Positions 6,574-62,352 of a stretch of DNA of 64,000 nt are shown in pieces. Location of the stretch: NCBI RefSeq assembly GCF_003605575.1, contig NZ_QKNY01000005.1, forward strand, positions 62,001 through 126,000, in the 5' to 3' direction. Both the position numbers and the translations under genes were made by a program. Every line of letters starts with the position of its first letter. The stretch's first letter is position 1. The notes under the pieces were generated by a model, which was given only the letters and a program-made list of their open reading frames with translations, had not been told where the DNA came from and made no database searches. Origin of the DNA: Halonotius aquaticus (lineage in GTDB: Archaea > Halobacteriota > Halobacteria > Halobacteriales > Haloferacaceae).

Positions 6574-9500
6574 TCAGTCATCGGCTGGCACCTCTGCATC
6601 CGCGTCGTCGCTGTCGAACTGGATGCCGGTCACCGCGCTGTAGTTGTCGTCCTGCATCGTCACGCCGATAGCGCGCTCGGAGCGTTCCAAGAGCGCGGAG
6701 CGATGGGAGACGACGACGAACTGGGCGTCGCCGGCCAGATCGTCGACCATCTCGCCGACGCGCTCGGCGTTGACCGCATCGAGGAAGGCGTCGATCTCAT
6801 CGAGGGCGTAGAACGGCGCGGGGTTGTGTCGCTGGATGGCGAAGATGAACGCCAGCGCTGTCAGCGATTTCTCGCCGCCGGACATCGCTGCGAGTCGCTG
6901 GATCGGTTTGTCCGCGGGCTGGGCCTTCATCGTTAGCCCACCCTCGAAGGGATCCTCGGGGTCTTCTAAGACGAGTTCGCCCGTGCCGTCGGAGAGCCGC
7001 GAGAAGATGTCCTGGAAGTGGCCGTTGATCGACTCGAAGGCGTCCATGAACGTCGCCTTCTTTTGGGATTCGTACTGGTCGATCCGGTCGCGGATGCCGT
7101 CGCGTTCTTCCTCAAGGGTGTCGCGGCCGTCGACGAGTTCGTCGAGGTCGGCTTCGACTTCCTCGTATTCGTCGATAGCGAGCATGTTGACCGGCTCCAA
7201 CTTTTCCATCTCGGTTTCGAGGCGGTCGATGTTGGATTCGACCTCGTCGTGATCGGGGATCTCCTCGGGGTCGTAGTCGCCGACGGCCTGTTCCAGTTCG
7301 TCGATCTCCCATTCGAGGCGGTCGCGCTCCTCGCGGGCCGACTGGAGTTTTGACTCGATTTCGCCGACGGCCTCCTTGGCCTCGTCGCGCCCGGCTTGGG
7401 CGTCTTTGACTGTCGCCTTCAGGTCTTCGCGCTCGTCTTTGAGATCGACCAACTCGGCTTCGAGCTCTTCGATGGCTTCGCGTTTCTCGTCTAGGTTGGC
7501 CTCCTTGTCCTCGATCTGGCTTTCCAACTCGCTGATCTCGTCTTGGGCGTCGGCCTTCCGGTCTTGGGCCGCTTCGACGGTGTCGTGGAGGTCGTCGATG
7601 GCCTCCTCGGCGTACTGCTGTTCGAGTTGCTGTTCGTTGAGTCGGCCCTCAAGGTCGTCCATCCGGTCTTCGTGGTCACGGATCTCCTCGCGGATCGCGT
7701 CGGCCTCGTCGGTCAACTCGGGGATCTTCGATTCTGCCAACTCGGCTTCGAGCTCCTCGATGTCGGCGTCGACTTCCTCGCGTTCGCTCTCGATCTCATC
7801 GAGTTCGGCATCGACCTCGGCCATCTCTTCTTCGACAGCCTCGCGTTCGCTCTCGATCTCGTCGAGGCGGGCTTCGAGGTCGTCAATCTCGCTTTCGGCG
7901 TCGTCGATCTCCTCGTGGGTACGTTCGATGTCGGCCTCGATGGATTGGACTTTCTCGACGGCGTCGGATTTGCGGTCGCGGGCGGCGTCGATCTGCTCCT
8001 CTAAGTCGCGGATTTCGTCTTCGTGCTGGCGGCGTTTGTCTTCGAGTTGGTCGATTTCCTCAGCGAGGCGCTCGAGTTTGCCGCCGCCCGATGCGGAAAA
8101 GGCGTAGCGGGAGCCGCCGCCGGAGCCGCCGGTCATCGCACCGCTTTTCTCGACGAGGTCGCCGTCCAACGTGACCATCCGGAACTGGCCCATGAACTCG
8201 CGGGCTGTTTCCATATCCTCGACGACGAGTGTCGAGCCGAGCACGTACGAGAAAATGCCCTCGTATTTGCTGTCGTACTCGACGAGGTTGCGCGCGAAGT
8301 CGACGACACCCGGATGGGAGGGGAGGGTCGGTAGCCCGCGGTTGTCCATCTCCGTGATGGGGAGGAAGGTCGCCCGGCCGGCGTTGCGGGATTTGAGGTA
8401 GTCGATACACTCCGAGCCGACGCCGTCGTCGTCGACGACGACGTTGGCGAGCCGGCCGCCCGCGGCGGTTTCACAGGCGGTCGCATACTCGCTGTCGACG
8501 CTACCGAGATCGCCGACCGCGCCGTGGACGCCGCGTTTGCCGGCGTTGAGGATTGTCGTCACCGACCGCGGCCACGAGCTGTCGTCGTCGCTGCGGGCCT
8601 CGATGTCGGCGTATTCGGACTGCTTCTCGCGGAGCTGCGCTTCGACCTCCTCCAACTCGGCTTTCGTCTCCTCGCGGTCATCCCGGAGCGCCCCGATTGA
8701 GGCTTCGATCTTTGATTTGTTCTTTTCGGCTTTGTCGAGTTCGCTCTGGAGGTTCGACAGTTCGGCTTTGAGATCCGGAATCGCCTCTTGGGCCTCAGTG
8801 AGATCGGCTTGGGCCTCCTCGACTTCCGTCGAGCGTCGCCGAGCGTCGTCGAGCAGGCGATCTTTTTTCCGCTGGATGTCGTTGGCCTGCGTCTTTAGCT
8901 CCTCGCGTCGCTCCTTTTTGTCGGCCAACTCGGCTTTGAGTTCGTCGAACTCGGTGTCGGCGTTGTCGATCTCGTCTTGGATCTCGGCGAGGTCGGCCTG
9001 CTTGCTCTGGATTGTGCTTTTGACCGACGCCTGCTCGACTTTGAGATCCTTGATCGTCGACTCAATCTCATCGAGTTCTTCCTGTTTGCGGTCGATCTGG
9101 ACGAAGGCCTGCCGGCGTTCGTCCTCGGCATCCTCGATCCGGCCTTCGGCGGCCTCAATCCGGCCTTCGAGGCGGTCGATCTCCCCTTTGATCGACTCCA
9201 TCTCGCGTTTGAGCCGCAACTGCTCGTCTTCGCCTTTGCGTTCGATTTCGCGGTTGAGTTCCTCCAGTTCGTCTTCCAGCCGGGTGAGGCGGCCCTGCGC
9301 GCTGTCGAGGGTCTCCTGTCGCTCAGCGAGGGTTGCCTCGTGGCTGTCGATCTGGGCTTCGATCTCGTCGAGTTCGGTGCGTTTGTCCTCCAGTTCGGCG
9401 GCTTTCAGGTAGCCCTCGTACTCCTGTTTTTCGTCGCGCAGCGATTGGTATTCGAGGGCCGTATCGCGTTCGTCAGCCAACTGGTCGAGTCGCTCTTCTT

Positions 9501-10155
9501 TTTCTTCTATTTTGAGCGTCGCCTCGTTGATCCGCTCCTCGACGGCGTCGAGTTCCTCGAAGGCTGATTCCTTCTTGGCGTCGAACTCGGCGACGCCGGC
9601 GATCTCGTCGATGATGCCGCGCCGCTGGCCGGCGGACATGTTGATGATCTCGGTCACGTCGCCCTGCATGACGACGTTGTACCCTTCGGGGGCGATGCCG
9701 GCCTGCGAAAGCAGGTCTTGGATGTCGCCGAGGTTGACGGAGCGCTCGTTGAGATAGTAGTACGAATAGTAGTTGTCGTCGGTCTGTTTGACCCGGCGTT
9801 TGATCGTGATTTCCTCGACATCGCCGACGCGGTCGGTGCCGGCGGCGGTAACGACCTGCTCTCGGGTGAGCGTCCCCGCGCTGTTGTCGAGGATGACCTC
9901 GACGCTGGCCTCGCGTGGGCCATCGTCGGTCGAGGCTTCGCCGTCGTGGCCAGGGTTGTAGATCAGATCAGTTAGCTTCTCGGCGCGGATGCCACGGGTT
10001 TTCGCGAGTCCGAGGGCAAAGAGTACGCCGTCGATGATATTCGATTTCCCCGAACCGTTTGGCCCGGTAATCACCGTAAAATCTTCGTACAGCGGAATAC
10101 GCGTCGGCCGCCCGAAACTCTTGAAACCGTCTAAGACGAGGGCTTTGATGTGCAT
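6574..10155 (-). CDS. smc: chromosome segregation ATPase SMC
   Basis: SMC protein of 1193 aa, full length. Walker A GPNGSGKSNIIDG is at about residues 32-44; long heptad-rich coiled coils follow; a flexible hinge lies at roughly 520-660 (beginning DDSSWPRSV, ending near GSTLVVEDMETA); the second coiled coil leads to the C-terminal head with the ABC signature MSGGEKS (about 1091) and Walker B/D-loop FYALDEIDAFLD. It organises and segregates the chromosome as a ring with ScpA. The start MHIKALVLDGFKSFG is the canonical N-terminus. It is second gene of the operon: a small coiled-coil protein precedes it by 39 bp, scpA follows by 17 bp. Confidence 0.96.
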   Translation of the reverse strand: MHIKALVLDGFKSFGRPTRIPLYEDFTVITGPNGSGKSNIIDGVLFALGLAKTRGIRAEKLTDLIYNPGHDGEASTDDGPREASVEVILDNSAGTLTREQVVTAAGTDRVGDVEEITIKRRVKQTDDNYYSYYYLNERSVNLGDIQDLLSQAGIAPEGYNVVMQGDVTEIINMSAGQRRGIIDEIAGVAEFDAKKESAFEELDAVEERINEATLKIEEKEERLDQLADERDTALEYQSLRDEKQEYEGYLKAAELEDKRTELDEIEAQIDSHEATLAERQETLDSAQGRLTRLEDELEELNREIERKGEDEQLRLKREMESIKGEIDRLEGRIEAAEGRIEDAEDERRQAFVQIDRKQEELDEIESTIKDLKVEQASVKSTIQSKQADLAEIQDEIDNADTEFDELKAELADKKERREELKTQANDIQRKKDRLLDDARRRSTEVEEAQADLTEAQEAIPDLKAELSNLQSELDKAEKNKSKIEASIGALRDDREETKAELEEVEAQLREKQSEYADIEARSDDDSSWPRSVTTILNAGKRGVHGAVGDLGSVDSEYATACETAAGGRLANVVVDDDGVGSECIDYLKSRNAGRATFLPITEMDNRGLPTLPSHPGVVDFARNLVEYDSKYEGIFSYVLGSTLVVEDMETAREFMGQFRMVTLDGDLVEKSGAMTGGSGGGSRYAFSASGGGKLERLAEEIDQLEDKRRQHEDEIRDLEEQIDAARDRKSDAVEKVQSIEADIERTHEEIDDAESEIDDLEARLDEIESEREAVEEEMAEVDAELDEIESEREEVDADIEELEAELAESKIPELTDEADAIREEIRDHEDRMDDLEGRLNEQQLEQQYAEEAIDDLHDTVEAAQDRKADAQDEISELESQIEDKEANLDEKREAIEELEAELVDLKDEREDLKATVKDAQAGRDEAKEAVGEIESKLQSAREERDRLEWEIDELEQAVGDYDPEEIPDHDEVESNIDRLETEMEKLEPVNMLAIDEYEEVEADLDELVDGRDTLEEERDGIRDRIDQYESQKKATFMDAFESINGHFQDIFSRLSDGTGELVLEDPEDPFEGGLTMKAQPADKPIQRLAAMSGGEKSLTALAFIFAIQRHNPAPFYALDEIDAFLDAVNAERVGEMVDDLAGDAQFVVVSHRSALLERSERAIGVTMQDDNYSAVTGIQFDSDDADAEVPADD

Positions 10156-26642: not shown

Positions 26643-29075
26643 CTACGCCGCCCCGAGTGTGATGCGAGCAGTTGTCCCGCCGCTGTTGTCGAATGTAAGC
26701 TGCCCATCGGAGTAGTCGACGATCCGATCGATCAGCCAGAGGCCAACCCCACTGCCGTGTTCTAACTCTGATTCGTCGTGGCCGTCGATGACGGTGAGTT
26801 CGGTACTCGGGATACCGGGCCCATTGTCGCTGACCTCGATGACAACGTCGTCGCCGGCTTCGGTGGCCGTCACCCGGATCTCACCGCCGTCGTCGACAGC
26901 GTGTTCCAGCGCGTTTTCGATGAGTTGCGTGATGGCAACCGGGAGCTTCGGGTGGGCGAGAACCGACGCCGCTGTCTCGCTGTCGACGCTGACGTCGACA
27001 GCCGCCGGTGGGTCAGGCGCCATCTCGACTGCATCCTCGACAACGGTGTTGATCGCGACCCGGTGTCGCTGTTCCCGTGTCTGGACGACTTCACGCATTG
27101 TCCGCGCGTTGGTTGCGGTACGTTCGAGATTCTCACAGTGCTCGATGATATCGGCTGCGTAGGCGGCTGTCTCACAGTCCTCGGCGATGGCGTTGGCGTA
27201 CCCTTTGATCACCGTCAGATCATTCCGGAGGTTATGCCTGAGCACCCGGTCGAACACCGCCTCAAGCAGCTGGAGCTCCTCGCGGTTGTCGACCAGCTGG
27301 ATCGCCGTTTCAAGGTTCGAGGTCAGCGTTTCGGCGATACTCCGGTCGGCGTCGGTCAGATTCTGTGGTCGGACGGTGCCGGCCATCAGGATGCCAAACT
27401 CGCCGATCGGGGCGATAACCTCCGAGCGAACCACGCTATCCTCGTTGTAGGCGTCGGGCCGGGCGGCGACATCGCCGACGAGTTCGGTTTCGCCGCGCTC
27501 GAATGCGTCCCACGCGATCCCGTCACCGCGCTCGAATGCCGGCGGTGATCGAAAGAGATCGAAGGCCGGATCGGTCATCCCCAGTGGGGTGAGCCGGTCG
27601 TCGATCTGATCGTACTCCCACACCCCCGTGATCGGAAAGTTGAGCGCCGTCGGAAGCTGCTCAAGCACCGCATCGATCATCGCCGGCTTCGCTTCGGCGG
27701 TCACGGCTTCCTGGGTGATCGTCTGGACGGCTTCGAGGCTCTGGGTTCGCTGGGCCCGGGTGAGGCCGATATTCCCGAGTGTGCTCAACAGCCGGCCAAG
27801 TTGTCTGTCGGTCTCATCGAAAGCCCCTGGCCGCTCGTCGCCGATCACAAGCACGCCGTGGTCGCTGAGCGGACACAGCAGGACGCTTTCAATTTCCGGG
27901 CCTGCGTGGGCGATCGAGTCGTCGGCCGTCGACAGTTGATCGATACACCGGGTCTCCCCGCCGTAGACCGCCCACAGCGGTGTTTCGTCGTCGCCGCTGG
28001 CGGCCGCAAACATCGGCTCGTCGGCCGTCGTCGCCGCCGGTGTGAGGGCGTCGGTAGCCCGATCGTAGAGGTGTACCTCCGCGACTGACGCGTCGATGAC
28101 GGCCATCGCCGTTTCGATCGTCCGCTCGCAGGCCGTCTGTCGATCCTCGCTTGTCAACACCGCCTGTGACTCCGCATACAGCGATGCCAGGGTTCGGCGG
28201 CGTCGTTTCTCGTCGGTGATATCGACATAGAGCAGGAAAAACTCCCGGCCGGCTGCGATCGTGATCGGGACAGCCCGCAGCAGGAAGTCGCCGCTGCCGG
28301 TTGTGGTCTGTCGGCTGACCTCCGCGGTCACCGGCTGGCCGTCGGTGAGTTGGGCGTCGATATCGGCTGTCCCTCCCTCGTCGCTTGCGGCTGTCTCCTC
28401 GCTGTCAGTCGCCGGGATCGTGGGTTCGAGCCGACTCCCCTCCGTCGTCGAGGTGGCGTCGCCGAAGGTCGTCTCGAAGGCCTCGTTTCGGCGGGTGATC
28501 GTCGCCGTCCCATCGGTGGGAGAGACGGTCACCATCGGCTCTTGGATGGTCGTAAACAGGGCCTCAAACCGCCGTCGCTCGTTGCGAAGGGTTGCTTCGG
28601 CCGCCGTGGCCGTACACGCGGTTGCAAGCTTGTCGTTGAGCGGCCCGAGAGCGTCGATGACTGCCGTGGGAAGCCCCGACCCGCGCGTGCCGAGCAGCAA
28701 GACGCCGAACTCACAGAGCTCAAAGAGGTAGTAGTGGCCGTCTTCGCCGACCTCGCCGACGATCGGGAACGACTCGGCGTTGGTGCTTTCCTCGCCGCCC
28801 GTGTCGTTCTCGCCCTCGGTGTCGCCCGCTGTCCGTTCGGTGAGCCGAGCGCGTGCAGCGAGATAGACCGGATCGTCGACGGCGGCCGCAGGCTGGGAGA
28901 CGACCCGATCGTAGCCGCCATCCTCGTGGCGGCTAAAGACGCCGCCGACCGTACAGTTCAGTTTCTGGAGATACGCCTGTAGGGCGGTTTTAGCGGTCGA
29001 TTCCAGCGTTTCCCCCGGCGAGATCGCCAGTGAAATTTCATGGAGGATTTGGGTTCGGTGGGGGTGGTCAGCCAT
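26643..29075 (-). CDS. multi-GAF/PAS sensor histidine kinase
   Basis: 810 aa, soluble (no membrane segment). N-terminal GAF-like region (about 15-170), a PAS domain (about 185-300, ending LLYVDITDEKRRRR), two further GAF domains (about 310-590), then a haloarchaeal-type kinase core: phospho-acceptor H614 in VLRHNLRNDLTV, N-box NALEHA (N721), G1 box DNGPGIP (about 750) and a glycine-rich G2 (SGVGLWLIDRIV). It should autophosphorylate in response to a cytoplasmic cue. A FIST-domain gene precedes it by 24 bp on the same strand. No cognate receiver gene is adjacent. Confidence 0.9.
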   Translation of the reverse strand: MADHPHRTQILHEISLAISPGETLESTAKTALQAYLQKLNCTVGGVFSRHEDGGYDRVVSQPAAAVDDPVYLAARARLTERTAGDTEGENDTGGEESTNAESFPIVGEVGEDGHYYLFELCEFGVLLLGTRGSGLPTAVIDALGPLNDKLATACTATAAEATLRNERRRFEALFTTIQEPMVTVSPTDGTATITRRNEAFETTFGDATSTTEGSRLEPTIPATDSEETAASDEGGTADIDAQLTDGQPVTAEVSRQTTTGSGDFLLRAVPITIAAGREFFLLYVDITDEKRRRRTLASLYAESQAVLTSEDRQTACERTIETAMAVIDASVAEVHLYDRATDALTPAATTADEPMFAAASGDDETPLWAVYGGETRCIDQLSTADDSIAHAGPEIESVLLCPLSDHGVLVIGDERPGAFDETDRQLGRLLSTLGNIGLTRAQRTQSLEAVQTITQEAVTAEAKPAMIDAVLEQLPTALNFPITGVWEYDQIDDRLTPLGMTDPAFDLFRSPPAFERGDGIAWDAFERGETELVGDVAARPDAYNEDSVVRSEVIAPIGEFGILMAGTVRPQNLTDADRSIAETLTSNLETAIQLVDNREELQLLEAVFDRVLRHNLRNDLTVIKGYANAIAEDCETAAYAADIIEHCENLERTATNARTMREVVQTREQRHRVAINTVVEDAVEMAPDPPAAVDVSVDSETAASVLAHPKLPVAITQLIENALEHAVDDGGEIRVTATEAGDDVVIEVSDNGPGIPSTELTVIDGHDESELEHGSGVGLWLIDRIVDYSDGQLTFDNSGGTTARITLGAA

Positions 29076-39607: not shown

Positions 39608-39961
39608 CCTCCCGGCACGGTTTCGTTTCGCCCCGTCGACATCACATCTCGTAGTAGCGATCTCCACTGTCGGGGGCGTTCCGCCCTGATAACTTATTTT
39701 GCTGCAACCCGATGTAGTGGTAATGATAGGTCGCAGCTTTCGCCGAATCCCCACACCTGGGGGCAACTCACCACCAGTAGTGGTTTCTATCGGGGTATCG
39801 ACACACACGCCGCCGTCCGGTTCTGCAGTTCCCGCGCACCTCCGTCGTATCGCTGACCGTAGTCCAGCAGCCCGTCGCGAAGCGCTCCGTCCGGCTACTG
39901 CGTCTACTGCCGCAGCCCCAGTGGTGCAGTTGTCCACTGCGGCCCGTCGGTGGGATCGTGT
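39608..39961 (+). other. leader region of the LOV regulator gene with a possible short ORF
   Basis: A good TATA element (ataacttattttg, 39690-39702) predicts a transcript start near 39723, where an ATG opens an 80-codon frame (39723-39965) ending in a TGA that overlaps the LOV gene ATG by four bases. The encoded peptide (MIGRSFRRIPTPGGNSPP...) is basic and Pro/Ser/Ala-rich, unlike haloarchaeal proteins, so I keep it as a possible leader ORF. A dyad ACCACCAGTAGTGGT is at 39770-39784. Confidence 0.4.
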
Positions 39962-42900
39962 ATGACACCCACGGATGGTCAGCAGCAGGCAACGATCGGC
40001 GTTGTCGTCAGTGGTTCTCAGGCGGATCCAGTACCGACTGAGCTGTGTGACGGGTATGCCCTGATCGACTGTGACGACAGCGTACCGGCTGTTGTTGATC
40101 TGTGTCTCGTTGATGCGGAAACGATCCAGACACAGCCCGCACTCGTCGCCGACTGGCGAGCACAGCAATCGCCGGTTTTTGCCCCGATTGTGCTGCTCGC
40201 CGATCCCGCATCGCAGACAGACCAAGGCGTAGACACTGAGGCTCCCGTTCGATACGATGACGTTATTGAGACGTCGACACCGACGGCGGCACTCACCCGT
40301 CGGATTGATAACCTCTTCCAGCGGCGGAGGCTCTCACAGGAGCTCGCCGACACAAAACAGCTCACCGGGTCGATCTTCGAGTCAAGCCCGCTGGCGAAGC
40401 TCATCGTGGGGGCTGATGGGACGATTGAACGGGCGAATACGCGTGCCGGCGAGCTGTTTGATATCTCTCCCACCGAACTCGTTGGGCAGTCCTACAACGC
40501 GGATGGCTGGATCACACTTGACGACGGGACAAAACTGAGCGTCGAAAACGGGGTTCCGTTCGCCGACGTGATCGATACAGCCGACCCGATCTCCGAGCAT
40601 GAATGTACGATCACACGACCGCACGACGACGATGTCGTGGCCTCGGTGAATGCCGTACCGATCCAGACTGACGACGCTGCGGTCGAGCGGGTCTTACTGA
40701 CGCTTACCGATATCACGGCTCGCCGCGCACACGCCAACGCACGTGATCGACAGGTCGATCTCTTCACAAAAGCCCAGGATATCGCCAACGTCGGCGCCTG
40801 GGAGTATGACCTGCGAACAGCTGATCTCTATTGGACTGACGAGGTATACCAGATATACGGGCTCTCGACGGATGTTACGATCACCAGCGAGCGCGCTATC
40901 GCGGCGTATCACCCTGCTGATCGCCCCGCGATCGAAGATGCCTTCGAGCGGGCGGTTGCCGACGGGGACGCCTATGATCTCGAACTGCGGCTGATCGACG
41001 ACACCGATACGGTTCGCTGGGTGAGAACGCGTGGCGAACCACAGTCCGACGACGGTGACGTGATTCGCGTTCGGGGCACGATACAGGATATCACTGAGCG
41101 AAAAACCCGCGAAGGAGAACTTCAACAGATGCGCAACGCTGTCGACAAGGCTCCGATCGGGATCGTGGTCAGTGATCCGACACAGGACGACAACCCACTC
41201 GTCTATGTGAACAATGGCTTCGTCGAGCAGACGGGATATACACGACAGGAGGCTACCGGCCAAAACTGTCGATTTCTACAGGGGGAGGATACCGACGAGG
41301 AGACTGTCGCGGAACTGCGAGCGGCGATCGATGCCGCGGAGCCGGCGTCAGCAACGATCCGCAACTATCGCGCCGACGGCTCACCGTTCTGGAATCATCT
41401 TGAGATCGTACCCGTCACCGACGAGTCGGGAACCGTGGCCAACTACATCGGTTTCCAGCAGGATGTTACCGAACGAAAAGAACGCCAGGAAGCACTCAAA
41501 GAAACACAGCAACGGCTTGCGTTGGTGCTTTCGGAGACACATACCGGCGTGTGGACATTCCACCCAGAGTCGGAGACGATTACCCCGATTGAGTTCCCGG
41601 ATGGGCTCGGGCTTGCAGAACACGCGAGTGATGTCGACGCCTACCTAGAACAGATTCACCCAGCGGATCGAGACGTTGTCAAAGACCGCATTGGATCGGC
41701 GATCGACTCACACGAGGAGTTTGACGTTGAGTTTCGGCTTGATACCGACGAGTACGAACGGTGGCTGCGCTCACACGGTACCGTCGTCACCGACTCCGAC
41801 GGCAGCGACCGCGTTGTCGGGATTACAACGGAGATCACTGAACGCGTCCATCGGATGACCGCACTCGAAAAGCGCGAACGGTTGCTCCGGGAACTACACA
41901 CGGCAACGCGCCACCACTACCCACTCGAATCACAACAGGCACTCGCCGAATTCGTCATTGCGTTTCTGGAAACCGCGTTGGATCTCACCTACGCGAGCAT
42001 GAAGCTGTTTGACGACGACGCCGGTGTCCTCCGATCGGTTTGCGACTCAGCTGCCTTCGGGGAGCGTCCAGGCTCGCTTGCGACCGTTGCTCCGGGCGAC
42101 AATCCTGTGTGGGAGGCATATCGGAGCGGGGAATCACACCGTGTCAACACGCCACAGTTCGATGGCGTGGCTACGGAGCTACCTGTCACCTTCACCCAAC
42201 TCGTAGCTGTCCCTGTCGGCGATTTCGGTGTTGTCGTTGTCTACCTTCCCGAGGCGACGGAGTTCACCAACGTCGATACCGATATCGTCGAGGTCGTTGC
42301 GACAAACGCCGAAGCCGTGCTTCGTGGGTTCGAAAGTGCCGAGAGTCAGGCCCAACTCGCTGACCAACTCTCGATCCAACGGGCACACATCGACACGTTA
42401 CAGGCCGTCGTTGACACAACTCAGGCGATCCAAGACCGTATCTCACAGGCTGACACCCAATCAGCACTCGATACCGCTGTCTGTGCAGAGCTCGCGACAC
42501 CAGCCCCGATTGAGTTTGTGTGGATCGGCCGGCCACGCGCGACAGAGACAGCACTGACAGTGACAGCGTCAGCCGGTGGTGGCGAGCAGTATCTTGACAC
42601 TGTCCGCTCGGCACACGGCGCGTGCTCGCTTCCAGCACATATCGCGGCAACGGAACGCGAACTGTTCAGCAGCAACGCGATCTCCCAGCACGTCCGAGAC
42701 ACGGATTGGGCAAAAGAAGCACTCTCATATGGATACAGTGCCGTGTTGAGCATCCCGCTTGTTCATAACGACGTGCTGTACGGCGTGCTCACCGCCTACT
42801 CCTCACACGACGATGCCTTCGATGAGATGTATACGAATCTGCTCACCGATGCGGCGTCACTCCTGTTGAATCACACCCGCGTGCTTGATCAACGGTCGCT

Positions 42901-43588
42901 TGGATCGAATCAAACGCCGACGACGGTGACGTTCAAACTTGCCGATGGCTCCTGTCCGCTGCAACGACTTGCCGCGGCGACAGCAAGCGAGATTCGGCTC
43001 AAAACGATCGTCCGTGCCACGGACGACACGGTGACAGTGGTGGCAGAGATCATCGACGGCGACCGCCAGGCGGTGTGTGAGTATGCATCGACGGCAACAG
43101 GGATCAACTCGGCTACGCCCTTCGGCACCGATGATTCCACACAGATCCTGCTTGAACTGCCGAGGCCGTTCTTGGCTACGGCTGTCGAACAGTACGGCGG
43201 GCAACTCCTCACCGCAACCGCGACCCCAGCGTCGACCCGGATTCAGCTTCGGATCACGAGCGGTGTCTCGCGGCGGCCACTCTTCGAGTTTATCACCACA
43301 CAGTTCGAGCACGCCGAGTTGATCGCCCAAGAAGAGAGACCGGATGCAGCAATGGACGACAGGGCGGCCCTCGACGAACTGACCGAGCGCCAGCGGGAAA
43401 TCTTGAATGCAGCCTACTATGGCGGCTACTATGAAATACCACGGACGGTAACGGGTGAAGAGCTCGCAGCAAGTTTCGACATCTCAAGCCCGGCGGTCTA
43501 CAAACACCTGCAGGCTGCACACAAAAAGCTCCTCAAACAGCTACTCACACACGAGTACCCTCCACACGAAGGTGGGTTAGACAGTTAA
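39962..43588 (+). CDS. LOV/PAS/GAF sensor regulator with Bat-type HTH
   Basis: 1208 aa, soluble. Order: receiver-like N-terminal region (1-115), PAS (about 120-255), PAS (265-385), LOV domain (about 390-500), PAS (510-625), two GAF-type modules (640-970) and a C-terminal HTH_10 (about 1135-1200, DELTERQREILNAAYYGGYY). The LOV core GQNCRFLQ has the flavin-bonding cysteine at C436, with YVNNGFVEQTGY before and GFQQDVTERK after, so blue-light sensing is expected. Bat, the bacterio-opsin activator of Halobacterium, has the same PAS-GAF-HTH_10 layout and also controls phytoene synthase. A transducer and cheD follow. Confidence 0.87.
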   Translation: MTPTDGQQQATIGVVVSGSQADPVPTELCDGYALIDCDDSVPAVVDLCLVDAETIQTQPALVADWRAQQSPVFAPIVLLADPASQTDQGVDTEAPVRYDDVIETSTPTAALTRRIDNLFQRRRLSQELADTKQLTGSIFESSPLAKLIVGADGTIERANTRAGELFDISPTELVGQSYNADGWITLDDGTKLSVENGVPFADVIDTADPISEHECTITRPHDDDVVASVNAVPIQTDDAAVERVLLTLTDITARRAHANARDRQVDLFTKAQDIANVGAWEYDLRTADLYWTDEVYQIYGLSTDVTITSERAIAAYHPADRPAIEDAFERAVADGDAYDLELRLIDDTDTVRWVRTRGEPQSDDGDVIRVRGTIQDITERKTREGELQQMRNAVDKAPIGIVVSDPTQDDNPLVYVNNGFVEQTGYTRQEATGQNCRFLQGEDTDEETVAELRAAIDAAEPASATIRNYRADGSPFWNHLEIVPVTDESGTVANYIGFQQDVTERKERQEALKETQQRLALVLSETHTGVWTFHPESETITPIEFPDGLGLAEHASDVDAYLEQIHPADRDVVKDRIGSAIDSHEEFDVEFRLDTDEYERWLRSHGTVVTDSDGSDRVVGITTEITERVHRMTALEKRERLLRELHTATRHHYPLESQQALAEFVIAFLETALDLTYASMKLFDDDAGVLRSVCDSAAFGERPGSLATVAPGDNPVWEAYRSGESHRVNTPQFDGVATELPVTFTQLVAVPVGDFGVVVVYLPEATEFTNVDTDIVEVVATNAEAVLRGFESAESQAQLADQLSIQRAHIDTLQAVVDTTQAIQDRISQADTQSALDTAVCAELATPAPIEFVWIGRPRATETALTVTASAGGGEQYLDTVRSAHGACSLPAHIAATERELFSSNAISQHVRDTDWAKEALSYGYSAVLSIPLVHNDVLYGVLTAYSSHDDAFDEMYTNLLTDAASLLLNHTRVLDQRSLGSNQTPTTVTFKLADGSCPLQRLAAATASEIRLKTIVRATDDTVTVVAEIIDGDRQAVCEYASTATGINSATPFGTDDSTQILLELPRPFLATAVEQYGGQLLTATATPASTRIQLRITSGVSRRPLFEFITTQFEHAELIAQEERPDAAMDDRAALDELTERQREILNAAYYGGYYEIPRTVTGEELAASFDISSPAVYKHLQAAHKKLLKQLLTHEYPPHEGGLDS

Positions 43589-43657
43589 CTACCCCGTTGG
43601 AACCCACGTTAGTAGTTTAGCTAGTCTGTTGAACCTGTCTGCAGTGCAAGAAGTGAT

Positions 43658-46120
43658 ATGGGTCTGACACACTCTCTTCGGCTTGATCGGTTGAATCTCC
43701 GTGCCAAGTTGATCGCGACATTCGTCGTCGTCGCACTCCTTGTCGGCGTGACAGGAGCGGTTGGCTACCAAGGCGCGTCAGCCCTCGATCACGAGGCACA
43801 TCTCATCGCACAGAACGGCGAAAACATGGATCATGCCGCCGAGATGCTCGTCGGCATCGAAAAGCAACAGGTCGCTGTCCAGGCAACTGAGCTCGGTGAG
43901 TCTGGCGCACAGGCTGAGTTCGAGGATGGAAACACGCTATTCACCGATCACGCGGCCGCGATGGCTCCCGACGCCGCGGGGGAGACGTCCGGTGAGTTGG
44001 AGACCCAACTTGCCGAGATACAGTCAACACACGACGAGTACAACGCGCTTGCGGCCACATACTTCGACGCCAAGGCAACCGGCAACGAGGAGCGTGCGGC
44101 CCAGACGCTGGCGGAAATGGGCACACTCCGCACTGAGCTAGAGGAGCAGGCACACACGCTTGAAGCGCTGTCAGGTGATGCGATGGCCGCCCAGGTTGCG
44201 GCCGCCGACAGCACGACACAAACCGTCCACATGGAGATCATCGGGCTAACCCTCGTGGCGTTTCTGCTCGCGATCGGGCTCGGTGTCCTCCTGAGTCGAC
44301 ACATGACACCGCCGATCAAACAGCTCGCCGCGTCTGCCACCGATATCAGCGACGGCAAACTCGATACGGAGCTACCGACGCATTCGATGGGCGACGAGAT
44401 CGGGCAGATGGTGGATGCCTTCGGCGACATGCAGCGAAACTTGGAGAATATGTTTGCTGATCTCCACGACGTGAGCCGGAACCTCAAGACGGGCGATCTC
44501 GACCAGGAGATCAGCACCGACTACCCGGGCACCTACGGCGACATCATGACCGGTGTCGACGAGGGGACTGATCAGCTGACAGCCAGTTTCGCGGATATCG
44601 AGGACGCCAGTGAGGCACTCCGAACCGGCCAACTTGAGCAGACGATCAACACGGATCGGCCGGGGCAGTACGGGGCTGTCCTGACGGACTTCAAACGCGG
44701 CAGCGATCAACTCGCCGATAGCTTCGGTCAGATCTCGACGGCCAGCCAGCAGCTCAAACGCGGCAACCTCGATCAGTCGATCGACGACGACTACCCCGGC
44801 GAGTACGGGACTGTGCTGACAAATCTCGGCGATGGAATCGCCCAGTTGCGGTCGAGTGTCCGGGAGGTACAGACGGTTGCCGACGATGTTGCCGTCGCCG
44901 CAGAAGAGGTATCGGCCAGCACCGAGGAGATCAAAACCGCAAGCACCGATGTCGCCGAGTCGGTCGAAGAGATCTCACGCGGTGCCGACGATCAAAGCGA
45001 TGATCTCGCCACCGTCTCGAATGAGATGAACGATATGTCAGCCACCGTCGAGGAGATCGCCTCCTCGGCTGAAGAGGTCGCCGCAACGGCACACACGGCT
45101 GTCGAACGGAGTGACACCGGCAGCGACAATGCCGGGGCCGCAAAAACAGAGATCGCCGCGATCGAATCGCAGGCCCAGGCTGCCTCCTCGCAGGTACAGT
45201 CGCTGGACGACGAGATGGAGGCGATCGGCGACATCGTCGATATGATCTCGGATATCGCCGAACAGACCAACATCCTCGCGTTGAACGCCTCGATCGAAGC
45301 CGCGAAAGCCGATGGTGCTGGCGACGGCTTCGCGGTCGTGGCCAGAGAGGTCAAAACGCTCGCCGAGGAAGCCGGCGAGGCCACCGCGGAGATCGAAGGC
45401 CGCATCGAGGAGATCCAATCGATGACCGGCGAAACGGTCGACGACATCGAGTCGATGAACGACCAGGTGCAGTCGGGTGCCGACACGATCGAGGGTGCCA
45501 TCGAGATGTTCGATGAGATCGCCGATGCCGTCGACGAAGCCGAACGCGGCATCGACGAGATCAGCCGCGCGACCGACGATCAGGCCGCCTCAACCGAGGA
45601 GGTTGTCTCGATGGTTGAGGAAGTTTCGGCTGTCAGCCAACAGACCGCGGCTGAGGCAACCGATGTCTCCGCGGCAACCGAGGAAACAGCCTCCTCACTG
45701 TCGGAGGCAGCGACAAACGTCCAACAGCTCTCACAACTTGCCGATGATCTGCACGACAACGTCGCTGACTTCAGTGTCGGCGGCCCAGCGGCAGCGAGCA
45801 GCGATCCTACGGCCGCGACTGCAACACCACCAACAGCAGCCCAAGAGTCACATGCAGGCGAGTCAGCGACGACATCGCCAGCGACCGGCTCCTCGGGCGG
45901 TCAAGCGCCGTCGTCCGATGACGCCACACCGAGGGCTGCCGAGAACGGCACCACCGCAGCCGCAGGCGGAACCGCACAACTGACAACCCGGGATTCGGAG
46001 TCAGCCGAGTCAGCAGCCAACGGGCATGTCGAATGGACTGATGTCAGCGGATCGCCATCGGACGAACTCCCCCACAGCAACGGCTCAGGGGACGATGCGA
46101 CCGACACCGACGAACTGTAG
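43658..46120 (+). CDS. methyl-accepting transducer (Htr-like) with tandem HAMP-like modules
   Basis: 820 aa. TM1 (about 20-42), extracellular helical domain (45-190), TM2 (192-212), HAMP (213-265), then three repeats of the type LKTGDLDQEI-x-DYPGTYGDI (about 283-395), which look like further HAMP-type units. The methyl-accepting signalling hairpin follows, with tip ILALNASIEAAKADGAGDGF and REVKTLAEEA. An unusually long Ala/Ser/Thr/Gly and acidic tail (about 700-820) ends in TDTDEL. It should signal to CheA/CheW; ligand unknown. It starts 69 bp after the LOV gene and is followed by cheD. Confidence 0.9.
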   Translation: MGLTHSLRLDRLNLRAKLIATFVVVALLVGVTGAVGYQGASALDHEAHLIAQNGENMDHAAEMLVGIEKQQVAVQATELGESGAQAEFEDGNTLFTDHAAAMAPDAAGETSGELETQLAEIQSTHDEYNALAATYFDAKATGNEERAAQTLAEMGTLRTELEEQAHTLEALSGDAMAAQVAAADSTTQTVHMEIIGLTLVAFLLAIGLGVLLSRHMTPPIKQLAASATDISDGKLDTELPTHSMGDEIGQMVDAFGDMQRNLENMFADLHDVSRNLKTGDLDQEISTDYPGTYGDIMTGVDEGTDQLTASFADIEDASEALRTGQLEQTINTDRPGQYGAVLTDFKRGSDQLADSFGQISTASQQLKRGNLDQSIDDDYPGEYGTVLTNLGDGIAQLRSSVREVQTVADDVAVAAEEVSASTEEIKTASTDVAESVEEISRGADDQSDDLATVSNEMNDMSATVEEIASSAEEVAATAHTAVERSDTGSDNAGAAKTEIAAIESQAQAASSQVQSLDDEMEAIGDIVDMISDIAEQTNILALNASIEAAKADGAGDGFAVVAREVKTLAEEAGEATAEIEGRIEEIQSMTGETVDDIESMNDQVQSGADTIEGAIEMFDEIADAVDEAERGIDEISRATDDQAASTEEVVSMVEEVSAVSQQTAAEATDVSAATEETASSLSEAATNVQQLSQLADDLHDNVADFSVGGPAAASSDPTAATATPPTAAQESHAGESATTSPATGSSGGQAPSSDDATPRAAENGTTAAAGGTAQLTTRDSESAESAANGHVEWTDVSGSPSDELPHSNGSGDDATDTDEL

Positions 46121-46131
46121 TTCCCGGTACG

Positions 46132-46653
46132 ATGCACCAGAGAAACGAGGCCCCCGACGCTGCCGCAGCCACCCAGCCACCTCGCCGGCATGTCAGCATC
46201 GGGGAGTACGCGGTCACAGAGACGGGTTGTGAGCTGGCCACCTATGGGCTGGGGTCGTGTCTGGGTGTTGTGCTCTCCGACGCGCAGGCCGGTGTTGGCG
46301 GCTTAGCACATATTAAACGTCCGCGTGCAACGGAGCAGCAGGCCACACCCGATGCTGTGTTTGCCGACACTGGGATCGAGGTACTGTACAGGGAGGTGCA
46401 ATCCGCCGGTGCGACGCGTCGCCACACGGTGGCGAAACTCGCTGGCGGCATCGACATGCGAAACGATTCGGCTGCTGTCGGGCGGGGGATCGGTGACCGA
46501 AATATCGAACAGGCAATCGCAACGCTGAGCACGCTCGATATCACGGTTGCAGCCATGGATGTCGGTGGGGAAGTGGTTCGCTCGGTATACCTTGATGGTG
46601 CTACTGGAGCGGTGACCATCGAAACGACGTGCGGTGACCGATACCGTCTCTGA
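46132..46653 (+). CDS. cheD: chemoreceptor glutamine deamidase CheD
   Basis: 173 aa. The catalytic pair is C43 in GLGSCLGVVL and H60 in GGLAHIK, spaced 17 residues as in characterised CheD. It deamidates glutamines on transducers and links to CheC. It begins 11 bp after the transducer stop, so it is probably co-transcribed and specific to or shared with that receptor. In most haloarchaea cheD sits in the main che operon; a copy attached to a single transducer is less usual. Confidence 0.92.
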   Translation: MHQRNEAPDAAAATQPPRRHVSIGEYAVTETGCELATYGLGSCLGVVLSDAQAGVGGLAHIKRPRATEQQATPDAVFADTGIEVLYREVQSAGATRRHTVAKLAGGIDMRNDSAAVGRGIGDRNIEQAIATLSTLDITVAAMDVGGEVVRSVYLDGATGAVTIETTCGDRYRL

Positions 46654-46775
46654 GGTCTTTCTTGCCGTTTCGTCTACTATTTTTGACAGCGGGTTACTCT
46701 GCGTGTCGTGATACGAGCAACTGCCTCACAGACAGCCGACTGAGCTCACGCGGCACCGCTGACACGCTCGACCAG

Positions 46776-47075
46776 TCACCCAAAGAGGCTCCCCCGTTGC
46801 CTAGTATCCTGCTGGGTGAGTGCGCCTGCACGCGGGAGGTGCGTTGCACAGCCACCACAGTAGCGGTAATCGGCGTCGTTGGCGGTACCGCAGTCAGGAC
46901 ACTCAACAACACCGTTCTCGACGGACACCGACGTTGTGGTGTCGGCCGCAGCCGCGTTGTCGGCTGTCTGCTGGCGGCGGTACACTCCGTATAGCACCAC
47001 GAGGTGGAGCACGGTGCCGGCGAGCAGCACGCCGACGTACCACTGACTGTCGAGCATGGTTGCCTCCATCAGCAT
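46776..47075 (-). CDS. membrane-anchored zinc-ribbon protein
   Basis: 99 aa. One transmembrane helix near the N-terminus (about 11-32) and a C-terminal zinc ribbon CPDCG ... YRYCGGCATHL (four Cys in two C-x2-C pairs). Start choice: a minus-strand TATA-like element near 47105 favours the ATG at 47075, while a GGAGG word sits 5 nt before the internal ATG at 47057; either is possible. Function unknown. Confidence 0.7.
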   Translation of the reverse strand: MLMEATMLDSQWYVGVLLAGTVLHLVVLYGVYRRQQTADNAAAADTTTSVSVENGVVECPDCGTANDADYRYCGGCATHLPRAGALTQQDTRQRGSLFG

Positions 47076-47128
47076 CTACGACCGCAATACACAAACGAGT
47101 AGCTATTTCTTTCAGCCCCCAACTCAAT

Positions 47129-61821: not shown

Positions 61822-62352
61822 ATGGGAGAGAAACCAGCCTCGATGTACAGGGATATCGACAAGCCCTCGTACACACGACGTGAGTACATCACCGGGATTC
61901 CAGGTTCGAAGATCGCCCAACACGATATGGGTGACCTGCAGGCTGATCCGGACGACTACCCGGTCAAGATCACCCTCGAATCCGAGGAATCTGTCCAGCT
62001 TCGCCACGGCTCCCTTGAGTCCTCGCGGCTCTCGGCGAACCGCCACCTGTTGAAGGAACTCGGGGAGGGCGAGTACAAGATGCAGCTCCGAAAGTTCCCC
62101 CACCAGGTCATCCGGGAGAACAAACAGGCAACCGGTGCCGGGGCCGACCGTGTCTCCGACGGGATGCGACAGTCCTTCGGGAAGATCGTCGGCACCGCCG
62201 CCCGCATCGGCGCTGACGAGCCGATCTTTACCGCCTACTGTACCGCCGAGCAGGCGCCGGTCGTCAAGGAAGCGTTCCGTCGCGCGTACAACAAGATCTC
62301 CCCGCCATGCCGGATCAACGTTGAACGCGGCGAGGAACTGCTCGTCTCCTAA
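61822..62352 (+). CDS. rpl10e: 50S ribosomal protein L10e (uL16 family)
   Basis: 176 aa from [20 protein letters not shown]. Conserved L10e segments: [48 protein letters not shown]. Binds near the A-site of the large subunit. A TATA-like gctttattc (about 61782-61790) precedes it by about 35 nt. A longer open frame upstream overlaps nucS and is not used. Confidence 0.96.

Follow-up and report, generated by a model that had tools for sequence, protein, structure and literature searches.

A LOV-containing Bat-like regulator, a candidate operator, and a taxis transducer recur together in haloarchaea

A block of three genes in the haloarchaeon Halonotius aquaticus encodes, in this order, a Bat-like regulator with a LOV domain (here LOV-Bat), a methyl-accepting transducer, and a second CheD. 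The block occupies positions 39962–46653 of the stretch of DNA that we analyzed (64,000 nucleotides, positions 62,001–126,000 of contig NZ_QKNY01000005.1), called the window; all coordinates are those of the window unless another contig or locus is named. Comparison of haloarchaeal genomes suggests that light sets the amount of the taxis receptor that is made, by way of a DNA switch common to the regulator–transducer pairs. Specifically, we consider it moderately probable that the three genes form a regulator–operator–receptor cassette, in which a light- or redox-responsive LOV-Bat sets expression of the adjacent transducer operon via a dedicated operator. The broader proposal is more tentative, and we judge it slightly short of an even chance. 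It holds that this is a patchy, multi-genus cassette, composed of a Cys-type LOV regulator, one dedicated operator, and a receptor with CheW or CheD, through which blue light would re-weight the chemosensory array without sensory rhodopsins.

Accounts of light-guided movement in archaea so far rest almost wholly on retinal-based sensory rhodopsins, and the literature that we searched lists archaeal LOV proteins with a helix-turn-helix (LOV-HTH) with no known target gene. The comparative evidence points to a taxis receptor as candidate target, to a specific DNA site, and to particular genomes, so that what an archaeal LOV transcription factor does becomes open to direct test. If the proposal is correct, it would tie light-dependent gene expression to the composition of the chemosensory array.

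Pairing of regulator and transducer across genomes

The LOV-Bat gene (39962–43588, plus strand; 1208 amino acids, with an alternative GTG start at 39950) is followed after 69 bp by the transducer gene (43658–46120, plus strand; 820 amino acids) and, 11 bp later, by cheD (46132–46653, plus strand; 173 amino acids). A preliminary description of this DNA had given these places, this order, and these gaps, and the reading frames and Pfam domains bear them out. It had also called the regulator "fused by location" to its receptor, which we reword as a regulator, a candidate operator, and then a presumed receptor operon.

The GAF-GAF-BAT-HTH_10 half of the regulator served alone as the query against 392 genomes of the order, so that the choice of Bats was not made by the transducer. 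A clear score gap separates the partner Bat family (at least 373 bits) from generic Bats (at most 228 bits). All 10 Bats with at least 40% identity, the window protein included, are directly followed by a transducer of one clade. At 37–39% identity, either another methyl-accepting chemotaxis protein (MCP) goes with the Bat (G336) or none does (G205 and G180), and none of 17 generic Bats has any MCP within 1.5 kb downstream. Four further pairs (A07HN63, Atlit-31R, LUM.21, and Halapricum) were found via the transducer, whose ortholog clade comes from a family search with its N-terminal part and comprises approximately 47 haloarchaeal loci. The specific Bat family thus lies directly upstream of the transducer in 14 pairs, from several genera and at least two families, and its spread is patchy (13 of the 392 genomes). 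Moreover, the identity matrices of Bats and transducers correlate (r 0.58, Mantel p 0.0004). These comparisons support the conclusion that the pairing is not due to chance and that the two genes belong together.

The composition of the third position is looser. The preliminary description had looked to linkage of all three genes in related genomes; regulator and transducer are indeed linked, and cheD is so in the two Halonotius genomes only. Across the 14 pairs, the third gene encodes CheW in six, CheD in two (both Halonotius), and neither in six, and we accordingly rejected cheD as a fixed third member. In the six CheW pairs, cheW follows the transducer gene with an overlap of a few base pairs or none, so the helper is probably co-expressed. 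As a separate observation, the pair of Halobellus sp. Atlit-31R has as neighbors genes for a phytoene-desaturase-like protein and a beta-carotene 15,15'-dioxygenase (PF15461; L133:12949–15627).

A palindrome upstream of the transducer

The intergenic regions between regulator and transducer have a palindrome, GGTTA-N6-TAACC, in common. Eleven of the 14 pairs have it with no more than one mismatch (shuffled sequences: mean 0.08, maximum 1), and in nine of those 11 it ends 67–69 bp before the transducer ATG. The distance is fixed to the transducer start and not to the bat stop codon, which argues for a transducer promoter element. Several pairs carry a degenerate second copy 32–33 bp downstream. 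In the window, the candidate operator GGTTAGACAGTTAACT (43575–43590; consensus GGGTTA-N6-TAACC) shares bases with the bat stop codon, and 67 bp separate its end from the transducer ATG; the degenerate second site CGTTAGTAGTTTAGCT (43607–43622) lies 32 bp downstream of the first and ends 35 bp before the same ATG. We infer that Bat binds the palindrome.

Several controls bear on the specificity of this element. When all inverted 5-mers with spacers of 0–14 were counted, GGTTA-N6-TAACC was the commonest dyad, exact in seven of the 14 sequences, and in 200 shuffles no dyad appeared in more than one sequence. None of 40 transducer relatives that have no partner Bat carries the palindrome at one mismatch or fewer within 200 bp upstream. 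A whole-genome scan of eight partner genomes found a single exact site, the intergenic one, in five (G348, G401, G459, G409, and G076), and the exact intergenic palindrome plus one further exact site in G385; a reversed control pattern was present in one of the eight. The region upstream of bat itself did not yield the palindrome, and neither did other Bat–MCP pairs (L085, L103, L116, and L219); the soluble-MCP pairs L222 and L223 have a two-mismatch site only. One of these loci, L085, merits description in its own right: at 375–381 kb of contig C10 of the window genome (L085:6910–12940), genes for a histidine kinase, a protein of unknown function, a REC-GAF-BAT-HTH_10 regulator, a soluble MCP, and a CheW stand in a row. 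The last three, at 377–381 kb, make up a second regulator–transducer–Che helper set of this genome.

Some findings weigh against a light-driven switch with this palindrome as its operator. The window copy has one mismatch, and the sole exact match in the window genome is elsewhere, at C18:184412; that site is outside the block, where the sequence is rich in A+T and resembles a gene, and looks like a chance occurrence. In three pairs (Halohasta, LUM.21, and G172), the site is weak or missing. In several pairs, it overlaps the last bat codons, where selection on the coding sequence may play a part; six pairs have it entirely in noncoding sequence. The palindrome was, furthermore, discovered in the same intergenic regions in which it was counted, a worry that the dyad count, the controls, and the genome scan lessen and do not remove. 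Finally, 10 of the 14 partner Bats retain the LOV motif with its Cys and four (G076, Atlit-31R, G435, and G172) have lost it, and light is thus not essential to the cassette.

The three proteins

The regulator matches three PAS domains, two GAF domains, BAT (PF15915, 62.6 bits), and HTH_10 (PF04967, 63 bits; cut-off 23) in Pfam, and the BAT and HTH_10 scores, both above cut-off, place it in the Bat family. From its N terminus, the order is a degenerate receiver-like region, PAS, PAS, LOV, PAS, GAF, GAF, BAT, and HTH_10; in related proteins, the N terminus is a recognizable Response_reg domain. BAT and HTH_10, the DNA-binding part, are encoded at 42923–43537 (plus strand). The LOV domain (41114–41485, plus strand) carries the motif GQNCRFLQ, and residues 389–526 match the LOV domain of YtvA in the PDB (E 4e-34). 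The adduct-forming Cys (codon 41267–41269) has the number 436 if the ATG at 39962 is the start and 440 if the GTG at 39950 is. All flavin-site residues are kept in the alignment (YtvA G59, N61, C62, R63, F64, L65, Q66, N94, N104, and Q123), and the same residues are present in all 10 LOV-Bats, save for L65M in G348. The true LOV core with C436 and the PAS, GAF, and HTH_10 domains of the preliminary description are thereby confirmed.

We considered and rejected the possibility that this protein is the bacterio-opsin activator proper. The block has no rhodopsin match, and all three rhodopsin genes of the genome are on other contigs, one of them beside a canonical Bat gene that is divergent from it (L226:7458–10520, contig C13). 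By domains and gene neighborhood, the window regulator is Bat-like and not the bop activator. In the canonical Bat, the LOV Cys is replaced by Pro (GRNPRLLQ), and the window LOV-Bat is thus an additional, cysteine-bearing Bat.

Archaeal LOV-HTH (Bat-like) proteins of the architecture (RR/GAF/PAS)+LOV+nPAS+kGAF+HTH make up approximately 30% of halobacterial LOV proteins (PMC4844311), and the window regulator belongs to the same architecture class. That survey treats single proteins, and its text does not deal with chemotaxis or MCPs; the transducer pairing and the candidate operator are additional here. The Bats of Halobacterium (PMC1447603) and Halorubrum (BAT-LOV*, PMC4682037) likewise combine LOV or PAS with GAF, BAT, and HTH_10. 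The window Bat is longer, keeps the Cys, and is linked to a transducer, whereas in these two the reactive Cys is reported to be missing and the link is to genes of the bop cluster. Both the Cys-less and the Cys-bearing kind occur in the window genome.

The transducer has transmembrane helices, HAMP, and an MCP signaling domain (PF00015, 137 bits; 45125–45634, plus strand), as expected of a halobacterial methyl-accepting transducer. A canonical HAMP (residues 211–263) is followed by three tandem 45-residue HAMP-like units with PGxYG at residues 290, 335, and 380 (the four together at 44288–44857, plus strand; Pfam and sequence); the three extra units had been noticed previously, and their number differs among orthologs. 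The C-terminal tail (residues 701–820) is long and of low complexity, as the preliminary description had it, and is not notably acidic, contrary to what it had supposed (16% D+E, versus 19% in the whole protein). Between two transmembrane helices lies an extracellular four-helix-bundle sensor domain (43769–44227, plus strand). In the AlphaFold2 model, the mean confidence (pLDDT) is 70, which is moderate, and the ectodomain is mostly at approximately 76–91. Foldseek matches the ectodomain to 4k0d, a histidine-kinase sensor domain (TMt 0.84), and to the PcaY_PP ligand-binding domain (TMt 0.77); Aer2 poly-HAMP is also among the Foldseek matches. On this model, the transducer probably has its own extracellular stimulus, which favors control of transducer amount over direct light signaling.

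CheD (Pfam match, 76 bits) aligns its C43, H60, and T37 with C27, H44, and T21 of Thermotoga CheD (2f9z), which gives it the Cys-His-Thr deamidase site and bears out the C43/H60 pair noted earlier. Sequence identity is 63% with the A07HN63 copy and approximately 40% with the copy in the che cluster of its own genome, where archaellum-type and che genes, read from the sequences, surround the other cheD. In the CheD tree, the Halonotius pair stands alone on a long branch, unlike a recent duplicate of the gene in the che cluster. In the receptor signaling region, the Gln pair is kept with or without a linked CheD, and the sequence thus gives no hint of dedication. Another orphan cheD, convergent to an MCP gene, occurs in a different genus (L094, G169:C1:957000–976000, at approximately 7743–9837).

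Proposed mechanism, alternatives, and genome context

The proposed mechanism runs as follows. LOV-Bat would sense blue light by formation of a flavin adduct on C436, and possibly redox state too, and its PAS and GAF domains would add inputs of their own. HTH_10 would act on one dedicated operator just upstream of the transducer gene and would thereby set the level of the transducer and of a co-transcribed Che helper, CheD here and CheW elsewhere. The transducer, with its own four-helix-bundle sensor, would feed the normal CheA/CheY–archaellum pathway, and CheD probably deamidates or tunes the block receptor. The notion is that light would alter how heavily one taxis input counts and would not be the taxis signal itself. 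From the sequence comparisons, we infer light as the input, whichever sign the regulation has, co-transcription, and the action of CheD on the block receptor.

Parts of this cassette have precedents. In Halobacterium, the bop cluster is a target of Bat, and the dms operon is activated by the Bat-like DmsR (PMC1447603). Control of an operon by a Bat-like HTH protein is what we propose here, although the target of DmsR is anaerobic respiration rather than a taxis receptor and no LOV link is described for it (PMC1447603). HVO_1357, a REC-GAF-BAT-HTH_10 protein, affects motility in Haloferax volcanii (PMC7824242); BAT-HTH_10 and motility are in common, but no LOV domain is described. The Halonotius LOV histidine kinase ALovD-1 has a canonical LOV domain with a blue-light photocycle in high salt (PMC12202551), and its output is a kinase, whereas that of the window protein is HTH_10. 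Pairing of a LOV-HTH protein with a transducer is not described in the literature searched, and its absence there is not proof of absence.

How the block came to its present place bears on a first alternative. The genome (approximately 2.47 Mb) has 11 MCP genes, nine HTH_10 genes, two cheD genes, three rhodopsin genes, and approximately nine LOV domains. Two carotenoid genes, crtB and crtD, lie 2–7 kb from the block. In three of four Halonotius relatives (G057, G058, and G060), the block is missing and nrdJ stands directly beside the usp/crtB cluster, an empty site; the family search did not find the transducer in these genomes. Comparison of window positions 39608–47100 with the corresponding loci (L227, L228, and L229) indicates that approximately 7 kb including the block are inserted in the window genome. 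In the genus-mate A07HN63, an uncultured archaeon (G059), the block is in another neighborhood. G+C content at third codon positions is 0.64–0.72 in the block versus 0.80–0.85 in its neighbors. Flanking repeats of an insertion were sought around the block and not found. Given the empty site, the A07HN63 location, and the low third-position G+C content, the block was most likely inserted here and lies close to the crt genes only incidentally.

Such a mobile or transferred cassette might hold genes that travel together with no joint work in light, with the LOV domain as a passenger or a redox sensor. This alternative gains from the insertion, from the patchy spread, and from the Cys-less LOV of the same-genome canonical Bat, which is of the kind that, with Pro for the reactive Cys in Halorubrum BAT-LOV*, was shown to be redox-responsive (PMC4682037). 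We regard it as unlikely, given that transfer leaves the position of the operator and the strict pairing unexplained and that 10 of the 14 pairs retain the adduct Cys.

Genes beside halobacterial transducers often encode the sensor partner of the transducer, as in sopII–htrII, and the window genome has a rhodopsin gene beside an MCP gene at C12:135–136 kb, the usual sensory rhodopsin–transducer arrangement. By analogy, LOV-Bat could dock with the transducer at its cytoplasmic HAMP array and hand the light signal on to it, making a flavin-based phototaxis receptor. Transducers of the same clade do occur beside LOV or PAS histidine kinases that have no HTH (L117, L131, and L154). Moreover, among the matches listed and with shared ancestry not removed, a LOV domain lies within 8 kb of 14 of 36 clade members versus seven of 135 MCPs from outside the clade in those genomes; on the transducer tree, this label needs at least 8–9 changes, with gains and losses inseparable. 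Sensory rhodopsins I and II, whose genes also stand beside those of their transducers (HtrI and HtrII), are retinal membrane proteins that act directly on the transducer, whereas here a soluble, flavin-type, DNA-binding protein is accompanied by an operator-like site. Direct signaling is, in our estimate, marginally less likely than the passenger alternative, because the transducer has its own extracellular sensor, four partner Bats have no LOV domain, and BAT-HTH_10 and a conserved operator, needless for docking, are kept. In addition, the partner transducers come from different sub-clades (47–80% identity to that of the window) while Bat and operator persist.

Least probable is a wider regulator that controls the carotenoid genes as well as the transducer: crtB and crtD are near, carotenoid genes flank the Atlit-31R pair, and upstream activating sequence (UAS) sites are reported near crtB1 and brp in Halobacterium (PMC1447603), but the crt neighbors look incidental, the vicinity of the crt genes has no palindrome with at most one mismatch, most partner genomes have one exact site each, and a separate canonical Bat stands beside a rhodopsin gene in the window genome. 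The link to carotenoid genes drawn in the preliminary description is therefore not upheld.

Other neighborhoods of same-clade transducers are also of interest. In Halorientalis, Halovenus, and others, a gene for a KaiC-like ATPase (PF06745, 505 amino acids) and, slightly overlapping it, one for a LOV-PAS histidine kinase (approximately 740 amino acids) lie downstream of the transducer (L135:11573–15309, L137:14278–18077, L138:11576–15312, L155:11514–15250, and L158:13357–17093). In Halorubrum sp. SD626R (L142:4645–8817), a divergent LOV histidine kinase gene lies upstream of the transducer, and its motif, GQNPRFLQ, is a Cys-to-Pro LOV variant. Finally, the window itself encodes a GAF-GAF histidine kinase of 810 amino acids (26643–29075, minus strand) that is unlinked to the block.

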